NCBI GenBank assembly: GCA_009782495.1
Contig: WRIX01000003.1
Coordinates: 1 to 49,671, forward strand
Origin: Treponema sp.
GTDB lineage: Bacteria > Spirochaetota > Spirochaetia > Treponematales > Breznakiellaceae
Length of the DNA stretch: 49,671 bases
Direction of reading: 5' to 3'
The position numbers and the translations under genes are program-made. Each line of letters starts with the position of its first letter. Position 1 is the stretch's first letter. This document shows positions 385-9,868 of the stretch, one piece after another. A model generated the notes under the pieces. The model did no database searches, had not been told where the DNA came from, and worked only from the letters and a program-made list of their open reading frames with translations.

Positions 385-1773
385 TTACTGGTCTTTTCCG
401 TCAATTTGCCGGATTGATCCGTCAGGAAGGTGCTGTAACCTGGTTACCTTCATGCTCCGCAGGTGGTTTTTCCCGCCGGAAGGGCCTGCATCGTGATAAA
501 AGAGGTACCATGTGCCGTTAAACTCGACAATTGAATGATGCGTTGTCCAGCCGGAAACTTCCGTAAGAATAACGCCCTGGTAGGTAAACGGCCCGTACGG
601 ATTGTCGCCGACAGCGTAACATATCGTATGGGCATCGCCTGTTGAATACGTAAAGTAATACTTCCCCTTGTACTTGTGCATCCACGAAGCCTCAAAAAAG
701 CGCGTTTCTTTATCAGCCTGGGTAAAGGGGCGGCCGGCGTTGTCAAGAAGCTCTACCGCTCTGGGGGGTTCCGCAAACTGGAGCATATCGCTGCTCAGTT
801 TGGCTACCCGCGGCGCTATGGTTTCGCCCGCGGTAACATAGGGCATATTCATCCTTTCCGGCGCGTATTCATACGTGTTGTCGTTATAAAGCTGCAGCTG
901 TCCGCCCCAGAGTCCCCCAAAGTACATATAATAACTGCCGTCATCTTCGAGCACGCAGGGGTCTATGCTGTAGCTTCCGTGCATCGGCTCAGCCTGCGGT
1001 ACAAACGGGCCTTCGGGTCGGCTTGCAATGGCAACGCCGATACGGAAGATGCCGTCCGGGTCCTTTGCCGGGAAGTACATGTAATACCTGCCGTCTTTGT
1101 GCGCAACGTCATTGTCCCATAACTGACCGTGCGCCCAGGGGATATCGGACAGCGCCAAGACAACCCCGTGATCGGTTACGTCTCCGTGTGCAACATCGTC
1201 CAGCGAAAACACATGGTAATCGACCATATCGTATTCGCCGCCGTTATCCTTGTTGCCCAGATAACCGTCTGTGTCCCTGTCGTGGGAGGGATACACATAC
1301 AGCCTTCCGTTAAAGACACGGGCTGCCGGATCGGCCATGTAATCATCGGGAACCAAATACCGCGGCTTAAACCGACTGTCGTCAGCAGACGTTCCGCACG
1401 CCGCCGGCATTAAAGGTATTGTCGATGATGGCTTGGCAAAAAAGTACCCCGCACAAAACATTAACACGCCAAGAAACGCTATTCCGGCAAAAAGCAGCAC
1501 CCGGAACCGCCTATGTTTCCTGACCCTGTCCTCAACGGGCGCAGCCTCCGGCCCGGCAGCATTTACGGCGCCGTCTTTCCCGTATGTGGCAAGAAGCTCC
1601 TGAATACTGTGGATACCCAGCTTGCTGTATAAATTAGACCGGTGGTAATCGACCGTAGAATACCCAATATTAAGCTTAAAGGCTATCTCTTTAGGCGAAC
1701 TGCCCTTAAGCAGCAAGTCGAAAATTTCCTGTTCACGGGAAGACAGCTTTTCCTGCACAACAGGGATTATCAT
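385..1773 (-). CDS. membrane-tethered LuxR-type regulator fused to a GH43 glycoside hydrolase domain
   Basis: This 462-residue protein has three parts. Residues about 9-63 form a LuxR-type helix-turn-helix (SSREQEIFDLLLKG, then STVDYHRSNLYSKLGI). Residues about 90-112 are one membrane helix preceded by a basic stretch (VRKHRRFR), which predicts a cytoplasmic N-terminus and an outside C-terminus. Residues about 137-455 form a complete GH43 five-blade propeller. The GH43 triad is present: Asp148 (MADPAARV) as general base, Asp271 (SIDPCVLED) as pKa modulator and Glu361 (FFEASW) as general acid, with His413 in TTHHSIV. GH43 enzymes cleave arabinose- and xylose-containing glycans. The layout is that of a ToxR/CadC-like one-component regulator whose sensor is a sugar hydrolase or a binding domain derived from one. 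That role is inferred. A promoter over the 5' end suggests the true start may be the GTG at codon 6 (1758). The gene is divergent from the next one. Confidence 0.88.
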   Translation of the reverse strand: MIIPVVQEKLSSREQEIFDLLLKGSSPKEIAFKLNIGYSTVDYHRSNLYSKLGIHSIQELLATYGKDGAVNAAGPEAAPVEDRVRKHRRFRVLLFAGIAFLGVLMFCAGYFFAKPSSTIPLMPAACGTSADDSRFKPRYLVPDDYMADPAARVFNGRLYVYPSHDRDTDGYLGNKDNGGEYDMVDYHVFSLDDVAHGDVTDHGVVLALSDIPWAHGQLWDNDVAHKDGRYYMYFPAKDPDGIFRIGVAIASRPEGPFVPQAEPMHGSYSIDPCVLEDDGSYYMYFGGLWGGQLQLYNDNTYEYAPERMNMPYVTAGETIAPRVAKLSSDMLQFAEPPRAVELLDNAGRPFTQADKETRFFEASWMHKYKGKYYFTYSTGDAHTICYAVGDNPYGPFTYQGVILTEVSGWTTHHSIVEFNGTWYLFYHDAGPSGGKNHLRSMKVTRLQHLPDGSIRQIDGKDQ

Positions 1774-1795
1774 ACCTACTTTAAGACGATGTCAA
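1766..1795 (-). promoter_or_regulatory. sigma-70 type promoter of the LuxR-GH43 gene
   Basis: On the minus strand a perfect TTGACA (1790-1795) is separated by 18 bp from GATAAT (1766-1771), which overlaps the annotated ATG. Transcription would start near 1759, one base before the in-frame GTG at 1758-1756. The mRNA would then be essentially leaderless and start at codon 6, leaving the helix-turn-helix intact. Confidence 0.5.
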
Positions 1796-1845
1796 GGGTA
1801 GGGGAAATATGAATGATTGAAGGAAATGCTAAATATACCGATACT

Positions 1846-1851
1846 TATAAT
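1846..1851 (+). promoter_or_regulatory. TATAAT -10 element of the divergent TPR gene
   Basis: A perfect TATAAT lies 8 bp before the ATG at 1860, so transcription would start about 2 nt before the start codon. No ribosome binding site precedes the ATG, which fits a leaderless message. A good -35 is missing: TTGAAG at 1817-1822 is 23 bp away, which is too far. Confidence 0.35.
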
Positions 1852-1859
1852 GTAAAGCT

Positions 1860-3014
1860 ATGAACAGGAAACCGGATTCCGCCTTTCAAATTTCTGTCTT
1901 TCGATTAACCCTTCGTTATTTAGCTGTTCTGCTGGGTCTGTTTGTTCTTTTTCCGGCGTTTGCTGCCGCCCAGCAGCGGAGGAACGATCCCTGGTGGATT
2001 ACCCTGGAAGAAGGGAAACGGTATTTCAGGAACGGCGCTTACGGCGATGCCCTGCGCCATTTTGAAGATGCCCGGGAAAGCAGAAAAACCTACTATGCCA
2101 AAATGGAACGGGATCTTATTACTGTTCTTTCTCTCCATGCGGTACGGGGGCTTAGGGATGACCTGGGCCTTTTGGAAAAATACATAGAAAGGGAATTCCG
2201 TGTAGACGCTGCGGACGCCCTTAAAGAGCTCTATTACCGTGTGCCAAAAGCAAGGCTTAACAATTCTTCAAATGCCGCTTTAACCGAACTGGGCCGCCTT
2301 AAAAACTACCCCGAAGCTGAATTCTGGCTGGGAGAAGTATACCGGGTGGAAGGGGAATTCAGCATAGCCCTTAGTCAATACCAAAAGGCTTACGACCAGA
2401 GAACGCAGCTGGAAAACCCGGAATTCGGCAGGGAGATACTGTACAAAATTGCAGGAATCCGGCAGCTGCGCCGTGAATATACGGAAATGGCCAAAGTCCT
2501 GGATGATGTTCTTAAAACAGATACCTTGTGGAGCCGGGAATCCTTTACCCGGTCCAATTTGTTAAAGAGTCTGGAAACCAATGGGGTAAACAGGTTTTTG
2601 CTTCTTTTCCGGCACAACGAACCGTATGTGGAAAAAGCCCACAGAACAATGGGGTTTTATTATTACAACAGCGGCAGGCACGAGCGGGCTGTAGAAAACC
2701 TGCTGTTTGCGTTCTTGATTCAGAATTCAGTTATTATTGATGCGCTTCTCCACGCCCAATACGATTATACGTTTACAAGCCTTTCCGGTCTTATGAACGA
2801 CATAGGGCGGAGACGGGATCTCCTTGCCTACCTGGAAGAGATTGAATACTTTAAGACCGTATATTATCTTGGCAATTCACTTTATGCCGTAAACCGCCGG
2901 GGCGCCGCCAGGGAACTCTGGACTTTTCTCCGGGATAACGCAAGCGGAGAATTAAGGGGCAGGGCGGTTTCTCAACTGAACAATCCGCGTCTGGACTCCG
3001 TACCCGAACGCTGA
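1860..3014 (+). CDS. secreted TPR-repeat protein
   Basis: The 384-residue product starts with a basic stretch and a long hydrophobic segment ending in FAAAQQ, a signal peptide with a likely signal peptidase I site near residue 38. The rest is helical with TPR-like repeats: GKRYFRNGAYGDALRHFEDA, then EFWLGEVYRVEGEFSIALSQY, then GFYYYNSGRHERAVENLLFA. Such repeats bind partner proteins, and the place of action would be the periplasm. It is divergent from the LuxR-GH43 gene and is followed after 22 bp by the phosphoribosyltransferase-like gene on the same strand. No enzymatic motif is visible and the specific role is unknown. Confidence 0.8.
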   Translation: MNRKPDSAFQISVFRLTLRYLAVLLGLFVLFPAFAAAQQRRNDPWWITLEEGKRYFRNGAYGDALRHFEDARESRKTYYAKMERDLITVLSLHAVRGLRDDLGLLEKYIEREFRVDAADALKELYYRVPKARLNNSSNAALTELGRLKNYPEAEFWLGEVYRVEGEFSIALSQYQKAYDQRTQLENPEFGREILYKIAGIRQLRREYTEMAKVLDDVLKTDTLWSRESFTRSNLLKSLETNGVNRFLLLFRHNEPYVEKAHRTMGFYYYNSGRHERAVENLLFAFLIQNSVIIDALLHAQYDYTFTSLSGLMNDIGRRRDLLAYLEEIEYFKTVYYLGNSLYAVNRRGAARELWTFLRDNASGELRGRAVSQLNNPRLDSVPER

Positions 3015-3036
3015 CGTATTGCAGTATTAGCCGCAC

Positions 3037-4122
3037 ATGAGTACAATAAATTCATCTATGAATAAAATTGTACTAAAAGCGGAAGACCTTGACGGTTTTC
3101 TTACAGAATCAGACAAGAAAAATCTTTCACGCATGGACAGTCTTTACCGGGAAGCTCTTGCATGTTTTAATATTCTTTCCACAACCCGGCTTGTAACCGA
3201 ACAAAAGCGCGAAGAAGATAACCTTATCAGACTCTACAACGAAATGGGAACGACAATGCAGGAACTGTGCAGGGATGAACAGGGACTCCGGGTTTATTCT
3301 TTTCTTACTCCCCAGGAAAGCCACAGCGAAGCATCCAGGGTTATAGCCAAACTCAGGGATTACCGTACAGAAAACGAAGAATTTGTTTATTACATACAAC
3401 GGGCTTATGAGATGCTTTTTAAGCTGGCCTACGGAGTTATGCCTGCATCCAACAAAAACTACCTGTTTATACAAACTCCGGTAAATGTGCCCGTGCAGAA
3501 TTTTGCTGTTCATAAGATAAACAATGTAGACGAAAAAATCGAAAACACCGTTATGTGCGTTATGTTACGGGGAGCATTGCTTCCTTCTATGATTTTTTCC
3601 AAGGAAATTGAAGAATATTCTTCGCACGGCTACGTTACTCCTTTTGCACTGTTTAAAATCACCCGTGATGACTCAAAGCACGAAAACGATATGGAGTATA
3701 TTCTGGATTTGGATAAATCGTATTTTAATCTGGAATTACTGAACGATAAAGATTTGATTTTTGCCGATCCAATGAATGCAACAGGCGGAAGCCTTGTAAC
3801 GGTTGTTAAGTACCTTTTGGGAGAAGGCATTAAACCGCGATCCGTCAGTTTTGTTAATGTAATCGCCGCCTTAAAGGGTGCGCTCCGTGTAGTTCGTGCG
3901 CTGGAACATTGTACTGTCTATACACTGTGGATGGACCCTGTACTGAATGAACTGGCTTATATTTTGCCCGGTCTTGGCGATGCGGGAGACCGTATTAACG
4001 GAAGAGACCAGCCTGAACAGCCGCGTGATATTATCCAGCTTATTGCGGATTACGGTGCAAATATTGCCCGGTTGTACAGGGAACAGCTTCGTGAAATTGA
4101 AGATACTGTTTTAAGAACCTGA
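3037..4122 (+). CDS. uracil phosphoribosyltransferase-like protein with N-terminal extension
   Basis: The 361-residue protein carries the two signatures of the Upp family. The PRPP-binding loop is DPMNATGGS at 244-252 and the C-terminal uracil-binding segment is [12 protein letters not shown] at 308-319; [10 protein letters not shown] near 175-184 resembles the third family motif. Upp makes UMP from uracil and PRPP and is usually about 210 residues. Here about 130 extra residues precede the core, a charged and apparently helical region I do not recognise. It may be a salvage enzyme or a specialised paralogue, and I leave the symbol empty for that reason. A second ATG at codon 8 (3058) is possible, since neither start has a clear ribosome binding site. 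The TPR lipoprotein gene follows after 4 bp. Confidence 0.8.
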
Positions 4123-4126
4123 AAAA

Positions 4127-4897
4127 ATGGCAATACGCAATATATTAAAAATAAAGAAGTATTGTGCTTTAGCGGGATTATTGTTGCTTCTTTTACCGGT
4201 TGCATTATCCTTTTTATCCTGTATTACTTCTGATGCAAAAGCGGAAGAATACTATGCCATTGGTGATGCATATCTGGAATTAAAAAAATACATCGAAGCG
4301 GAAACCTGGTTTAACAAGGCAAAATTCAATAAATCTACAAAAATGGCTTGCGAATATAATCTGGGCCGTATTGCCTATGAAACAGGCCGTTACAGAGCCG
4401 CTGCGGAATATTTTGAACACGTTATTAAAGCGGACGGAGAAAACATAGCTGCCCTCAGAGCTGCAGCCTATACGTATATTAAACTGGAAAAACCGGAAAA
4501 GGCAGTTTCCTATTACAGGATAATTCTGGATCTTGTGCCGGAAAGTTATGACGAAGGCTACAACTATGCTCTTGTTTTAATGGCGCTGGGAGAAGCTGAA
4601 GAAGCCGAAAGAATACTTGTTAAATTCAACAATACCGAAAGTCCGGAAGCGCTGCTTGTTCTGGCCCGATCCCGGAGACGGCAAGGCAAAGCAGAAGCCG
4701 CAGATGCCTATAACAACAGCCTTCTGAAACAGGACAATCCGCTGGTACGCGCCGAATATGCGGCATATCTTGCGGAAGTTGGCTTGCCTGCAAAAGCCCT
4801 GGAAGAATACCGTAAGGTTTTGGAAAACGGCACATTGAGCGAAGAAAAAAAAGAGGAAATAGAAAAAGCTGTTGAACAATTAAAAACTGATGCTTAA
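4127..4897 (+). CDS. TPR-repeat lipoprotein
   Basis: The 256-residue product has a basic N-terminus, a hydrophobic stretch and a lipobox-like LSFLSC with Cys near residue 32, so it is probably a lipoprotein on the outer face of the inner membrane or in the outer membrane. The mature part is built of TPR units: EEYYAIGDAYLELKKYIEAE, CEYNLGRIAYETGRYRAAAE, AAAYTYIKLEKPEKAVSYY and others to about residue 240. It starts 4 bp after the phosphoribosyltransferase-like gene and is probably co-transcribed with it. Its 3' end overlaps the convergent barrel gene by 18 bp. It is a scaffold or adaptor by family; its partner is unknown. Confidence 0.82.
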   Translation: MAIRNILKIKKYCALAGLLLLLLPVALSFLSCITSDAKAEEYYAIGDAYLELKKYIEAETWFNKAKFNKSTKMACEYNLGRIAYETGRYRAAAEYFEHVIKADGENIAALRAAAYTYIKLEKPEKAVSYYRIILDLVPESYDEGYNYALVLMALGEAEEAERILVKFNNTESPEALLVLARSRRRQGKAEAADAYNNSLLKQDNPLVRAEYAAYLAEVGLPAKALEEYRKVLENGTLSEEKKEEIEKAVEQLKTDA

Positions 4898-7800
4898 AGT
4901 GGTTCCGAAGCTGAGCAGCAAGCTGGTCGTATCATATCTTTCATTCCTTTGAATGCCAAGCTTGGCAAAACCCGTAAGTGTAAGTCTTCCGATTATTCTG
5001 ACAACCGATTCATGGCCCAGAAACAGGGAAAAAGCGCCGTATTCATCCGAATAATCCAGTACCAGTTCCAAAGATTCCCTGATAAGCCGTTCGTGTTCGC
5101 TTGATGCCAATTCAGACAGAGATGGAAAATTATCCTTCCCAATCAATCTTTTCATGCCAGAATTGTACAGTGACGAAAGGAGGGTGTTTTCTCTGGGCAC
5201 TGTCCATAAAAGCATAAAACTGTCTATCCATCCTGTCCTGATGCTGTGGATAATGGTATATGTGTTTTTTAAATCCAGTTCAGCTCCGTTAAAGCCGAAT
5301 AATCTTAGATTTTGCTCAGCCTGTACTCTCCATAATGGATCTTCATTGCGCGGAAAAGAAACGATTCCGGTTATTGAATGGCGCAGCTCGTCATTCCGGT
5401 AAAAATTAAATACCGGCTTTGTACCCATTGCACCGAAAAGGTTGATCGAAGAAAACCCAAAACCGGAACTGATCGTAAATACATCAAGCAGCGTATCCAT
5501 GCGCTGTTCCATAGTTCTGTCAAATTGGGTAAAATGGCTGACCGGAACGATAAGGGAATAAACATCGTATCGTTCGGGAAAAACAAGGTTAAGCGCCAGC
5601 AATTCATGAAAACGGATGTTTTCCGGTCTAAAGCCGCTGCTGATGAAGTTTGACCGGGAGTTTTCCATAGAGGAATTAAGCCGGGGATCAAAAAGGGCGT
5701 ATAGCGGAACTGTTTGCCAGAGCCGGGAAGTTTCGGAAAAGCCTTGTCCGTAATGAACCAGGTCATCGCCAAGTGTAACACCGGCGACGTTCAGGGTTTG
5801 GGAAATATTGCGCTGTGAACGAAGCCGGCCCTTTATTCTGCCCAAACCGAACGGCGCTTCGATTCGTGCGATGGAACCGGATCGCGTATATTCAAAAGGA
5901 ATCGAAGCTGCGCTGTTTCCTTCAAAAGAAAGCTCCGCTCCTACCGGCGAATAGTCAAGATTAAAATTAACCCGCCCGCGCATATCCCGGTTTTGTATGG
6001 GGCTTTCCGCAGAACCTGAACCGCTGTCCGGAACCATAGCAGTCCAGCTTTGAGCCCAGGTTTCTGCATAGTTGGGCATCCAGTCCCGTACTTTTTCGGT
6101 CTTTTCCAGATAGTTTATGTTTCCTTCCAGAGAAAAACCGGGACGCCCGTTTTTTTCGCTCTGCATGCCTGTAGAGGCCGTCCATTGCCGCATTAACCGG
6201 CGGTACTGGTAATTGATCGAAGACGAAAAGTTTCCGTAAACCGGTGTGTTCAGCCTGAAAGAAAGCAGGTGATTCATCGTTTCGTCATTGGGAGGCGGGG
6301 CAGTGTTGTAATTTTCGGTGATCGACAAGGGACCGAAAGAGCGGTTTATCCCATGTCCCGCACTCCAGTATTTGATGTCGTTGGAAACAGTAAAATTTAA
6401 ATTTCCCGAAAGGCGGGTATCCAAAACCGTTAATTCTCCGCGTGATCTTGACTGGAATCCGGCAAACGTTTCTTCACTGTTTTCGAAAGGATTACCCACA
6501 ACGGCGCTTTCAAAAGCCGTGTTAACGACAGCTCCGGAAACAACTTTTGTATCCCCGATGCTGACAAGCGCATCGGGATGCCGCCAGTCCAGCGTCGCGC
6601 CGCTGTTTAACCTGTACGATGGAGACGGGTCTTCCAGACATATTTCGTCAATAGAAAACGTGCCGTCAGAATTTACGCCAGCATTGTTTACAATATACGC
6701 AGCGATATAGTGGGATTGTCCGTCTCCGACAAAATCTCCGTTCCCCTGGTTTTGCCGTAAAGCGCCGGGATTATAATTAACGCTGGCTGATACAGATTGG
6801 CCGTTTACAAGGACTTTTTTATCACGGTAATTGATTTCAACAGTATTCCAGGCAGCACTTAAACAACTTGTATCTTCGATTATCACTTCCAATGCCGGAT
6901 TGGTATTGGGCCCCTGGGAAACCAGAAAATGAAAACCTGGATTGCCGGAAGGAGTGGTTTCTTCAACCGGCCCTTTTAAATAAAAACTTAAAACCCGGTA
7001 ATCGGAAAGAGGAATGGTGGATGTTCTGCCGTCCGTTCCCGCCGACTCCATACCATTCCACTCTACTTTCAGAACATGGTTTACTCCGCTTTCGTGGAGC
7101 CGGCTTATCCTGCCGGTTTGAAGGGACGAATCAGTCCGTTCTGTTACCGATACACCGGCAACCACTGTATCCTGAGCAGCCTTAATTATACCAGCTTCAA
7201 GTGTAATAGCTCGCCAGCCTGCTCCAAGGATGTAAGGTTTGGCAACCAGGACTCTGCCCGAAAAACTTGAACTGCCTGTATTGATGATAAGTATCCGCAT
7301 ATGATTTGCGCTTTGAAGTTTGCGGCGCATGTCATCGGTCAGGGTAATAGCAATGGAATTTCCGTTCGATGGATCCGGCATTCCAATCAGGCCTCCGGGT
7401 AAAGTCCAGCCAGGGCCTGTATTGTAAAAAATCGGAGCTTCGATCATCAATCCCGGATTTTCCGTACTATTTGAATCTTCATCCGGAAAAACACCAAATT
7501 GAGCGACTACCAGAATATCGGGGGAATTTGTTGAAAAATCATAAAAACGCAGTGGTATAACAATTTCTCGTGCCTGTTCAAGCAAGTCCCCGTCTCTGCC
7601 AAGGGGCGCCTGAAAACCAGTCCATGACTGAGAGCCGGTTAATTCAAATTCTGCAACATAGACATCTCCTACTGGTGATTCATTGGCCGGATAAGGTCCT
7701 TCCAAGCCGGAAATAACAGGAGCGGACCATTCAATGGATTTTAGTTCAACACTGCCCAGAAAATTTGACTGCCGGTAATTCCGGTAAACCAACGATGCCC

Positions 7801-9868
7801 GGTTTGATGCGGTAAGCGGGAAGGCAGTAGGGGGTAAAACAACCGTAGGAGGAAGAACGGGGTTTTCAGCAGGTATTTTTGTAAGAAACCCTGCTGTCGT
7901 TGACATCCCAAGAACTATTTCAGAGTTTCCTTCCATACCTGCAATGCGGTACAGCCCTGTTGTATCCGGCTGTTCAAAAGCAAGTCCCAGAGAAAGACTT
8001 GCCTTTAGCCTGTCGTAGTTCCAGGAAGTCTTTGCGCTCAGGCCAACGGTGCCGGGACTGGTTGCCCCTTCTTCGGTATACGCTTCCTGCGAAATGTTCC
8101 AGCGCATACCCAGAGCTGCTTCGGCGCTAAAGGGGCTGTTTTCCGGTTTGTAGATAAGCCCCACTCCGGCGGCAAGGCTTCCCAGTCTGCGTTCTTCGCT
8201 TCGTTTTAAATAAGAGATACGTATAACTTCACTGAACCCAACAGGACTTGTCAGGGTAACATTTCCGCTTCCGGGATCGTAGTTTACCTGTGAATCGATA
8301 ATACCGGCACGGTAGACCATTACCGAGCCGGGTATTATGTCCGTTCCAATATAATAGGCTCCCGCTGCTCCATAGCTTGTAAAGCGCAGCCGTATATCTT
8401 CATTAAAAACCGGAGAACCGGGTAAATAAAGCTCAGGGTAATCGTCGGCTAAAGGCCAGCAGGAATAGGGCTCTCTTCTTGCACGTCCATAGTTTTGGTA
8501 AACAATTTCAAATATATTCCGGCCGGTATTGTCTCCGGCAAGGATATACATGGCGATATCCATAGAAAGCGTGTTGGCCGGCAGCACATCAAAATTGACT
8601 AGACGTTCTCCGCTGGAAAGACGGATCAGTGCCGCATCTTCGGTCGTATTTGAAGGCGACATATACCTGCTTTGCCGTTCAAATGGGGAAAAAGTTCCCG
8701 GTTCGTAGATAGGCAGGGCTGTAATACCATTAATAGTAATAGTATTCGGAACACCTGCGCCTCCGCCCGGTTGGGGGTAGGCTGACAGATCTATATCACT
8801 GCCAAAGTGTTCTTGTACTTTTCCGAGAAAACTGGACGTTGAGGTATAGGTACCCAGAGAATATCCGCCAACATAACTTACCGCTACCATCCCCTGCGGT
8901 TCTCTGACCAATTCAACCAAACCATCAAAACTGCTGACTGCAGCTTCACTGGGACCGGCTATTCTCCATCGCCGGCCTCCTCCTGACAGAGAACCGTCTT
9001 TATCTTCAAGGTAAACAACAGGAATGGAAGCTATATTATCATCGGGCAGGACAAATGATCGTCCGCGCAAAGGCTTGTCGGGTATGGTGGTGGAAAAACT
9101 CCGTTCACGATTGCCTACAAATGTTCTTTCTTCCCTGGCTGCTGCATCGTAACGTACCATTGTATGGAAGGTTAGTTCTTCGGAACCAAAACGTCCGTAT
9201 ACACCGAATGACGAGGTAGAGTCTCCTCCCAGATCCAGGTAAGAAAAAACCGGAAAGTCCAGACCTGTATTGCCTATGCCTACATACTGAATTGTTTCTC
9301 CGGGAAACCCCTGGTACCCTGCCCGGTAGGTGTTTAAATTGTAATCATCAATAAATGAAACTTCCAGAAACCATTTCTGCCATATCCACAGGGACAGTGT
9401 CAGGTCCGCTTCCTGGGTAAAAAGCAGGGGGGAATCTTTTGTTTCAGGAGCCGTGCCCATAGGTGAATTGGCAAGGCCCCAATTGACACTCAGGGAGCCT
9501 TTCCAGTAACCGTTTAAAAAAAGTGAAACATTGGTGTCCCAGATATTCATATTGATAAGCTGGGCGCTTGCTTCTTCCGCTATTTCCCTGCGGTGTTTTT
9601 CTGCGGCTGTTTCTGCGGTGTTCAGCGCTCTTTGAGTAGTCCGGTTAGGGGTAGCATCATCTGTTTGGCCGGAGGAATATTCATTCTCTTGCGGAGCAAT
9701 CAGAGCTTCTGAATGGGTTAAGTTTCTTTCTCCGTCAGGTTCGGAAGTCAGTTCCTGGGCGCCTGCGATAAACAGTGTTCCCAGAAAAACCACTGTCAGA
9801 GTTATCCTTTTTTTCAAGGCCGGTTTTGTGCTAAAGCGCTTTATGCTTCGCAAAACCACGTTTTGCAT
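4880..9868 (-). CDS. very large putative outer-membrane beta-barrel protein
   Basis: The 1662-residue protein starts with a signal peptide (basic start, TLTVVFLGTLFIAGAQ, cleavage near residue 38). It ends in a beta-rich stretch closing with SISF, the aromatic end typical of outer-membrane barrels, so it is most likely exported to the outer membrane. It is rich in Ser, Gly, Asn and aromatic residues and shows many alternating strand patterns. Near residues 520-570, PGSVMVYRAG, an ordered strand pair and IRISYLKRSEER resemble short segments of SprA-type giant barrels, a weak likeness from memory. Residues about 940-1090 look like a jelly-roll domain (LSDYRVLSFYLKGP, SIDEICLED). The remaining C-terminal part looks like barrel strands. 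The function is not known. It is divergent from ylxP with only 21 bp between the starts. Confidence 0.75.
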   Translation of the reverse strand: MQNVVLRSIKRFSTKPALKKRITLTVVFLGTLFIAGAQELTSEPDGERNLTHSEALIAPQENEYSSGQTDDATPNRTTQRALNTAETAAEKHRREIAEEASAQLINMNIWDTNVSLFLNGYWKGSLSVNWGLANSPMGTAPETKDSPLLFTQEADLTLSLWIWQKWFLEVSFIDDYNLNTYRAGYQGFPGETIQYVGIGNTGLDFPVFSYLDLGGDSTSSFGVYGRFGSEELTFHTMVRYDAAAREERTFVGNRERSFSTTIPDKPLRGRSFVLPDDNIASIPVVYLEDKDGSLSGGGRRWRIAGPSEAAVSSFDGLVELVREPQGMVAVSYVGGYSLGTYTSTSSFLGKVQEHFGSDIDLSAYPQPGGGAGVPNTITINGITALPIYEPGTFSPFERQSRYMSPSNTTEDAALIRLSSGERLVNFDVLPANTLSMDIAMYILAGDNTGRNIFEIVYQNYGRARREPYSCWPLADDYPELYLPGSPVFNEDIRLRFTSYGAAGAYYIGTDIIPGSVMVYRAGIIDSQVNYDPGSGNVTLTSPVGFSEVIRISYLKRSEERRLGSLAAGVGLIYKPENSPFSAEAALGMRWNISQEAYTEEGATSPGTVGLSAKTSWNYDRLKASLSLGLAFEQPDTTGLYRIAGMEGNSEIVLGMSTTAGFLTKIPAENPVLPPTVVLPPTAFPLTASNRASLVYRNYRQSNFLGSVELKSIEWSAPVISGLEGPYPANESPVGDVYVAEFELTGSQSWTGFQAPLGRDGDLLEQAREIVIPLRFYDFSTNSPDILVVAQFGVFPDEDSNSTENPGLMIEAPIFYNTGPGWTLPGGLIGMPDPSNGNSIAITLTDDMRRKLQSANHMRILIINTGSSSFSGRVLVAKPYILGAGWRAITLEAGIIKAAQDTVVAGVSVTERTDSSLQTGRISRLHESGVNHVLKVEWNGMESAGTDGRTSTIPLSDYRVLSFYLKGPVEETTPSGNPGFHFLVSQGPNTNPALEVIIEDTSCLSAAWNTVEINYRDKKVLVNGQSVSASVNYNPGALRQNQGNGDFVGDGQSHYIAAYIVNNAGVNSDGTFSIDEICLEDPSPSYRLNSGATLDWRHPDALVSIGDTKVVSGAVVNTAFESAVVGNPFENSEETFAGFQSRSRGELTVLDTRLSGNLNFTVSNDIKYWSAGHGINRSFGPLSITENYNTAPPPNDETMNHLLSFRLNTPVYGNFSSSINYQYRRLMRQWTASTGMQSEKNGRPGFSLEGNINYLEKTEKVRDWMPNYAETWAQSWTAMVPDSGSGSAESPIQNRDMRGRVNFNLDYSPVGAELSFEGNSAASIPFEYTRSGSIARIEAPFGLGRIKGRLRSQRNISQTLNVAGVTLGDDLVHYGQGFSETSRLWQTVPLYALFDPRLNSSMENSRSNFISSGFRPENIRFHELLALNLVFPERYDVYSLIVPVSHFTQFDRTMEQRMDTLLDVFTISSGFGFSSINLFGAMGTKPVFNFYRNDELRHSITGIVSFPRNEDPLWRVQAEQNLRLFGFNGAELDLKNTYTIIHSIRTGWIDSFMLLWTVPRENTLLSSLYNSGMKRLIGKDNFPSLSELASSEHERLIRESLELVLDYSDEYGAFSLFLGHESVVRIIGRLTLTGFAKLGIQRNERYDTTSLLLSFGTTLSISF

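Follow-up and report, generated by a model that had tools for sequence, protein, structure and literature searches.

The open reading frame at 1773 to 385 on the minus strand of the window (the whole stretch of 49,671 nucleotides of Treponema sp. contig WRIX01000003.1 that was analysed) encodes a 462-aa protein in which a LuxR/GerE-type helix-turn-helix (HTH) is tied through one membrane helix to a glycoside hydrolase family 43 (GH43) domain. Comparison with a sister species points to a young in-frame fusion, apparently a recent one, in which an HTH-transmembrane (HTH-TM) module took the place of the signal peptide in a GH43_1 xylosidase lipoprotein, with the native promoter left on one side and the lipobox on the other. 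Joined to this origin, the proposal that the protein is a membrane-bound transcription regulator using a catalytically competent GH43 domain as a sensor of xylo-oligosaccharides has, in our judgement, an even chance of being correct.

Reading frame, start codon and promoter

On translation, the frame is uninterrupted from ATG 1773 to the stop codon at 387-385, and ORF inspection found the plus strand of 385-1773 to be riddled with stops. The first-pass annotation had pointed out that a frame error joining two genes would undermine its reading. This can be ruled out, since the HTH and the GH43 domain lie in a single open frame with conserved residues on either side of the junction. The true start is likely the GTG at 1758-1756 (codon 6) rather than the listed ATG at 1773, because ATG 1773 lies inside the probable -10 element and the start of a paralogue in the same genome (contig C38) aligns with codon 6. 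From this GTG the window protein reads MQEKLSSREQ, and the paralogue starts MQEKLTSREQ. The promoter-like element, CTTGACATCGTC...GATAAT (1766..1796, minus strand), has the layout TTGACA, 18 bp, GATAAT, with ATG 1773 overlapping the -10. A start at GTG 1758 would therefore make the message almost leaderless; this codon is at or adjoining the expected transcription start, and a clear Shine-Dalgarno sequence is absent, as it is from the two closest paralogues. The element is common to the window gene and the lipoprotein GH43 gene of the sister species, where the shared sequence is CCCTTGACATCGTC...GTAG.TA..ATAATCC. Its 12-mer is present as a single copy in both genomes, so that a role as a regulon motif is not supported.

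The divergent neighbour is a TPR protein gene (1860..3014, plus strand; Pfam TPR), which anchors the synteny with the sister species (blastn, 88% identity to contig C28). No glycoside hydrolase (GH) gene was seen adjoining the fusion gene, and the contig ends 384 bp past it. Elsewhere in the window, 4880-9868 on the minus strand encodes a protein of 1662 aa that Pfam does not match at E ≤ 0.001; its N-terminus resembles a signal peptide, and it may be a large surface protein. By its gene content and relatives, the source bacterium resembles a gut spirochaete.

The HTH, linker and membrane helix

The HTH occupies aa 8-64 (1582..1752, minus strand). Pfam PF00196 (GerE/LuxR HTH) matches aa 9-60 with E=4.8e-15 and 55.4 bits against a curated cut-off of 23.5, and the AlphaFold model shows a four-helix fold (helices 12-22, 27-33, 38-52 and 57-64). 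At E ≤ 0.1 Pfam lists only GerE, Sigma70_r4_2 (below its cut-off) and GH43 for the protein. The HTH differs at 3 of the 23 conserved columns of its family, as sibling proteins do likewise. Over 62 HTH codons compared with the own-genome paralogue, dN was 0.14 and dS 1.36, a ratio that suggests constraint, most of it predating the fusion.

The linker (aa 65-90; 1504..1581, minus strand) ends in a basic stretch, RVRKHRRF by translation (also given as RVRKHRRFR). The single membrane helix follows at about aa 92-112 (1438..1500, minus strand), where hydropathy reaches its maximum of 2.31 and the sequence aligns with the TM helix of the paralogue; the AlphaFold model has a helix at 81-111, at low confidence (mean pLDDT 76 for the whole protein). 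Six Lys/Arg residues are found on the N-terminal side of the helix versus one on the C-terminal side. By the positive-inside rule an N-in/C-out topology is therefore predicted, with the HTH in the cytoplasm and the GH43 domain in the periplasm. The order given by the first-pass annotation (N-terminal HTH, basic stretch, one membrane helix, complete GH43) was borne out by Pfam, hydropathy and the model. The structure prediction that it had proposed returned an HTH, a helix and a propeller, and its placing of the two domains on opposite sides of the membrane agrees with the predicted topology.

The GH43 domain

Pfam, the PDB match and the tree define a GH43_1 catalytic domain at aa 137-459 (397..1365, minus strand). 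Pfam GH43 covers aa 207-452 (E=2.5e-23). By phmmer against the PDB, the beta-xylosidase RS223-BX (4mlg, E=9e-139) aligns over the whole of aa 136-459, and CoXyl43 (5glk) is the next match; both structures belong to subfamily GH43_1 (PMC6887791). The top PDB matches of the modelled propeller in Foldseek were 4mlg, 5glk and 6xn0, all GH43_1, with a TM-score on target of about 0.88-0.95, an identity of 50-62% and an rmsd of 1.6-2.6 A. D148 (1330..1332), D271 (961..963) and E361 (691..693), all on the minus strand, are aligned with the GH43 catalytic base, pKa-modulating Asp and catalytic acid, respectively. All three columns are invariant, so the triad that had been read as intact is indeed so in the alignment. 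The domain keeps 102 of the 105 columns that are conserved at ≥95% among 89 relatives. The three exceptions are S375T, P405E and Y448H, the last of which is common to its lipoprotein relatives. The GH43 part is a complete beta-xylosidase/arabinofuranosidase domain and is most likely catalytically competent.

A tree built from 90 GH43_1 proteins groups the window protein with four proteins of genus g71 (L212, L213, L214 and L248; support 100/97). These four nearest relatives are lipoproteins: three have obvious signal peptides, ending LMSC, ALSC and AVSC, and that of the fourth ends VVNC. More distant relatives from the family, and nearly all of those from Bacteroidota, begin directly at the catalytic domain and therefore look cytoplasmic. 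For one Bacteroidota relative (L044) the open frame spans 737 aa, a long N-terminal part preceding the domain.

The sister locus and the origin of the fusion

Contig C28 of a sister species in the same genus (genome G004) is collinear with the window through a UPRTase-like gene and the TPR gene, where the DNA is 88% identical, and it breaks off within the orthologous GH43 gene. This orthologue begins MKKNLFSGILPLILTLMPAACGSSSDDNRFKPRYLVPDDYMADPAAR and is a lipoprotein. The window protein reads ...GYFFAKPSSTIPLMPAACGTSADDSRFKPRYLVPDDYMADPAAR at the point where DNA homology to G004 begins, which is the lipobox. The junction lies around codons 119-120 (1414..1420, minus strand), as blastn of the sister locus against the window gives 96% over 152 bp starting ACC-TTTAATGCC. 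Directly after it, aa 121-126 (1396..1413, minus strand) read LMPAAC, for which the orthologue has MKKNLFSGILPLILTLMPAACGSS..., and this motif is a retained lipobox, a relic of the lipoprotein signal peptide. Between promoter and lipobox, then, the window carries the HTH-TM segment where G004 has a leader and a signal peptide. In the sister species the TPR gene is separated from the GH43 promoter by an insertion of a ParE-type toxin gene (2663-2977, minus strand of the C28 locus) and a likely antitoxin gene, both absent from the window.

The lipoprotein is probably ancestral and the fusion derived, because the lipobox is retained and the nearest relatives are lipoproteins. An ancestral fusion later lost in G004 is less likely: a full lipoprotein signal peptide would have had to arise de novo, and all four of the nearest GH43 relatives have one. 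The age of the fusion can be approached through the neighbouring DNA. Between the window and G004, dS is about 0.06 in the GH43 gene, a figure from the small sample of 47 comparable codons in its 5' part, against 0.54 and 0.64 in the flanking genes. Moreover, the window at about 1260-1366 is identical to the end of the sister contig over about 106 bp, and the flanking genes differ by 12%. These values suggest that the GH43 allele was probably exchanged between the two species after their split, and recently; in that case the fusion would postdate the exchange.

The first-pass annotation had proposed looking for the same domain order in relatives, and it was found in the window genome only. The HTH-TM-GH43 order was not seen elsewhere among 200 genomes of the family or among 393 of the phylum, no GH43_1 match in either set reaching into an HTH, and 0 of 75 GH43 ORFs from other phyla and relatives had an HTH. 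With no second case in these three sets, an established HTH-TM-GH43 family is ruled out. The unfused lipoprotein orthologue in the sister species argues for a young fusion in a single lineage rather than for an established system. The earlier claim of a novel one-component glycan-sensing system has to be narrowed to this extent, and the general kind of regulator is known. A regulatory role itself is plausible, because a family of LuxR HTH-TM-(CBM-like) proteins exists, some of them encoded beside glycosidase genes.

The HTH-TM-X family and its gene neighbours

At least 20 proteins consist of an N-terminal HTH, one TM helix and a variable C-terminus (HTH-TM-X). They come from genus g1, to which the window genome belongs, and from the related genus g71, and HTH relatives, present in 34 of the 200 family genomes, are concentrated in the same two genera. 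The N-terminal module of the window protein has 56-60% identity to the best HTH-TM-X members over HTH and TM. The own-genome paralogue (E=5.7e-35, 56-58% identity over this part) is a 256-aa protein (2926-3693 on the minus strand of contig C38) with an unrelated, unassigned beta-sandwich-like C-terminal domain, and its gene is directly upstream of a same-strand GH5 cellulase gene. By alignment, the C-terminal domains of the family were sorted into three types, CIA30-like, type A and type C, the last recognised by eye; Pfam CIA30 matches 6 of the 21 members aligned, the strongest match being 6e-8. Only the window protein has GH43 as its C-terminal domain. It lacks the CBM-like beta-sandwich of the family and has GH43 in its place, the other members carrying CIA30-like or other beta-sandwich-like domains.

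The same sensor types occur in enzymes. Type A plus CIA30 makes up the C-terminal part of a 686-aa secreted GH5 cellulase in genome G205 (953-3010, plus strand of locus L250), and in G215 the product of a gene beside another GH5 includes a CIA30 domain. Because type A and CIA30 are shared with a secreted cellulase, the HTH-TM-X regulators seem to have been assembled from the accessory modules that secreted glycosidases carry. In L145 (1483-2664, plus strand) the order, read by eye, is A-CIA30 after the HTH, with no TM helix. This protein and those of L130, L141 and L184 have the same N-terminal HTH, one or two sensor-type domains and no predicted TM helix, and would seem to be soluble counterparts of these sensors. 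A comparison of the type A and CIA30-like sensors with solved structures gave no significant relative, the best being a weak match to BtSGBP-B (E=0.1). A literature search returned no paper joining LuxR with CIA30, nor termite or Treponema with LuxR and glycoside hydrolase, and no existing name was found for the HTH-TM-X family of g1 and g71.

Genes for GH5, GH10, GH113, GH8, GH30 or GH141-like enzymes lie within two places of HTH-TM-X genes at no fewer than 7 of about 20 assignable loci (18 regions). When protein families were counted, the 60 neighbours no more than two genes away included at least four GH5, at least two GH141_M, at least one GH113 and at least one GH10, and the 53 genes four or more places away included at least one GH10; no significance is claimed for these counts. 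From such surroundings, the members of HTH-TM-X look like regulators of glycan genes.

Proposed function and alternative explanations

As a one-component transmembrane transcription regulator, the window protein would have its HTH in the cytoplasm and its GH43 domain in the periplasm. Xylo- or arabinoxylo-oligosaccharides would occupy the propeller and would probably be cut by it. Occupancy may alter the self-association or the position of the bitopic protein, and this in turn may change the DNA affinity of paired HTHs at promoters near the membrane. Because all GH43 catalytic residues are kept, the protein should both bind and cut. A wider proposal, which we put forward as a speculation that is rather unlikely to hold in full, is that this is the first one-component membrane regulator with a fully catalytic glycosidase sensor, one that signals the presence of xylan fragments to DNA and at the same time breaks down its inducer, so resetting itself. 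It would have been caught soon after a module swap, amid an undescribed family of LuxR HTH-TM regulators derived from glycosidase accessory modules.

The same protein may instead be an anchored enzyme, the fusion having exchanged a lipid anchor for an inner-membrane anchor and the HTH being a passenger with no regulatory role, in a gene that is maybe a transient accident. The balance is somewhat against this explanation, although it has to be taken seriously. It accords with the very young age suggested by the 5' dS of GH43 (about 0.06 to the sister allele versus 0.54-0.64 in flanking genes), with the occurrence of the fusion in a single genome in the family and phylum searches, with the retained enzyme promoter, and with the full set of catalytic residues, from which enzyme function appears to be maintained. 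The HTH and the TM helix are intact at family-conserved positions, which argues against an idle module, but weakly, as a recent passenger would also be undecayed; the module's family of origin also appears to consist of glycan-gene regulators.

It is improbable that the gene yields two products, a lipoprotein-like GH43 and a separate HTH, through cleavage near the retained LMPAAC or through internal initiation at GTG codon 92. This codon stands just before the helix and V92-C126, as read from the sequence, is signal-peptide-like, but at about 8-13 residues past the hydrophobic helix the lipobox would be poorly positioned for signal peptidase II. Least credible, with very little probability, is a chimera in which metagenome assembly joined an HTH-TM gene to a GH43 gene. 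Both genomes are fragmented drafts, and the G004 contig breaks in the same GH43 gene, within a stretch of about 106 bp in which it does not differ from the window. However, the HTH-TM segment is flanked on both sides, at promoter and lipobox, by stretches syntenic with G004, so that two false joins would be needed. Furthermore, 18-mers spanning the junction occur in none of the other loci compared, and several bases in the lipobox region are not those of G004, which places the junction outside the identical stretch.

The two species let a possible route to a membrane sensor be studied by comparison, with an unfused enzyme and a fusion at the same locus and behind the same promoter. Should the fused protein signal, it would allow a direct test of catalysis versus binding as the driver of sensing, which the nearly inactive GH10 of RsgI6 does not give. 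The HTH-TM-X family provides candidate glycan sensors for bacteria whose glycan regulation is little known.

Comparison with known systems

ToxR and CadC carry winged HTHs. The ToxR/CadC-like layout described by the first-pass annotation holds as a layout, but the window protein is not a member of that family, having a LuxR/GerE HTH instead of an OmpR-type winged helix. With a DNA-binding domain and a TM helix in one protein, it is a candidate member of the transmembrane transcription regulators (TTRs). Like ToxR, CadC, TcpP, TfoS and ChiS, it would be a one-component protein with a cytoplasmic HTH, a membrane helix and an outside sensor. It differs in its LuxR/GerE HTH and in having an intact GH43 enzyme, not a binding domain, as the putative sensor. 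TTRs are widespread and are enriched in Spirochaetota (survey PMC10269533), and TfoS and ChiS are required for responses to chitin oligosaccharides (PMC11856585).

RsgI6 of Clostridium thermocellum has a membrane-tethered GH10 sensor, which is reported to keep its binding ability and to have very little catalytic activity (PMC4711584). The window protein, if a regulator, would share with it the layout of a membrane-tethered regulator with an outside, xylan-related glycoside hydrolase domain. In contrast to the window protein, RsgI6 holds a sigma factor, does not itself bind DNA and has an unrelated N-terminal domain, whereas the GH43 catalytic residues of the window protein are all kept. The window protein as an RsgI anti-sigma factor is ruled out, as Pfam at E ≤ 0.1 finds no RsgI N-terminal anti-sigma domain.

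The Eggerthella LuxR regulators with 10-12 TM helices (DadR and relatives; PMC9734109) share with the window protein a LuxR HTH on a membrane protein and activate metabolic genes, but their HTH is C-terminal, they have a multi-TM domain, and they lack an enzyme or outside sensor domain (PMC9734109). The window genome also encodes, on contig C108 (786-2213, minus strand), a multi-TM protein with a C-terminal LuxR HTH that resembles the Eggerthella 12-TM LuxRs. It is followed by a small HTH-only protein of 80 aa (398-637, minus strand), and the same pair is present in G004 (L116).

The enzymes RS223-BX (4MLG), CoXyl43 (5GLK) and the Xanthomonas GH43_1 (6XN0) share with the window protein the whole catalytic domain and the triad, at 50-62% identity, but are free enzymes without an HTH or a TM helix.
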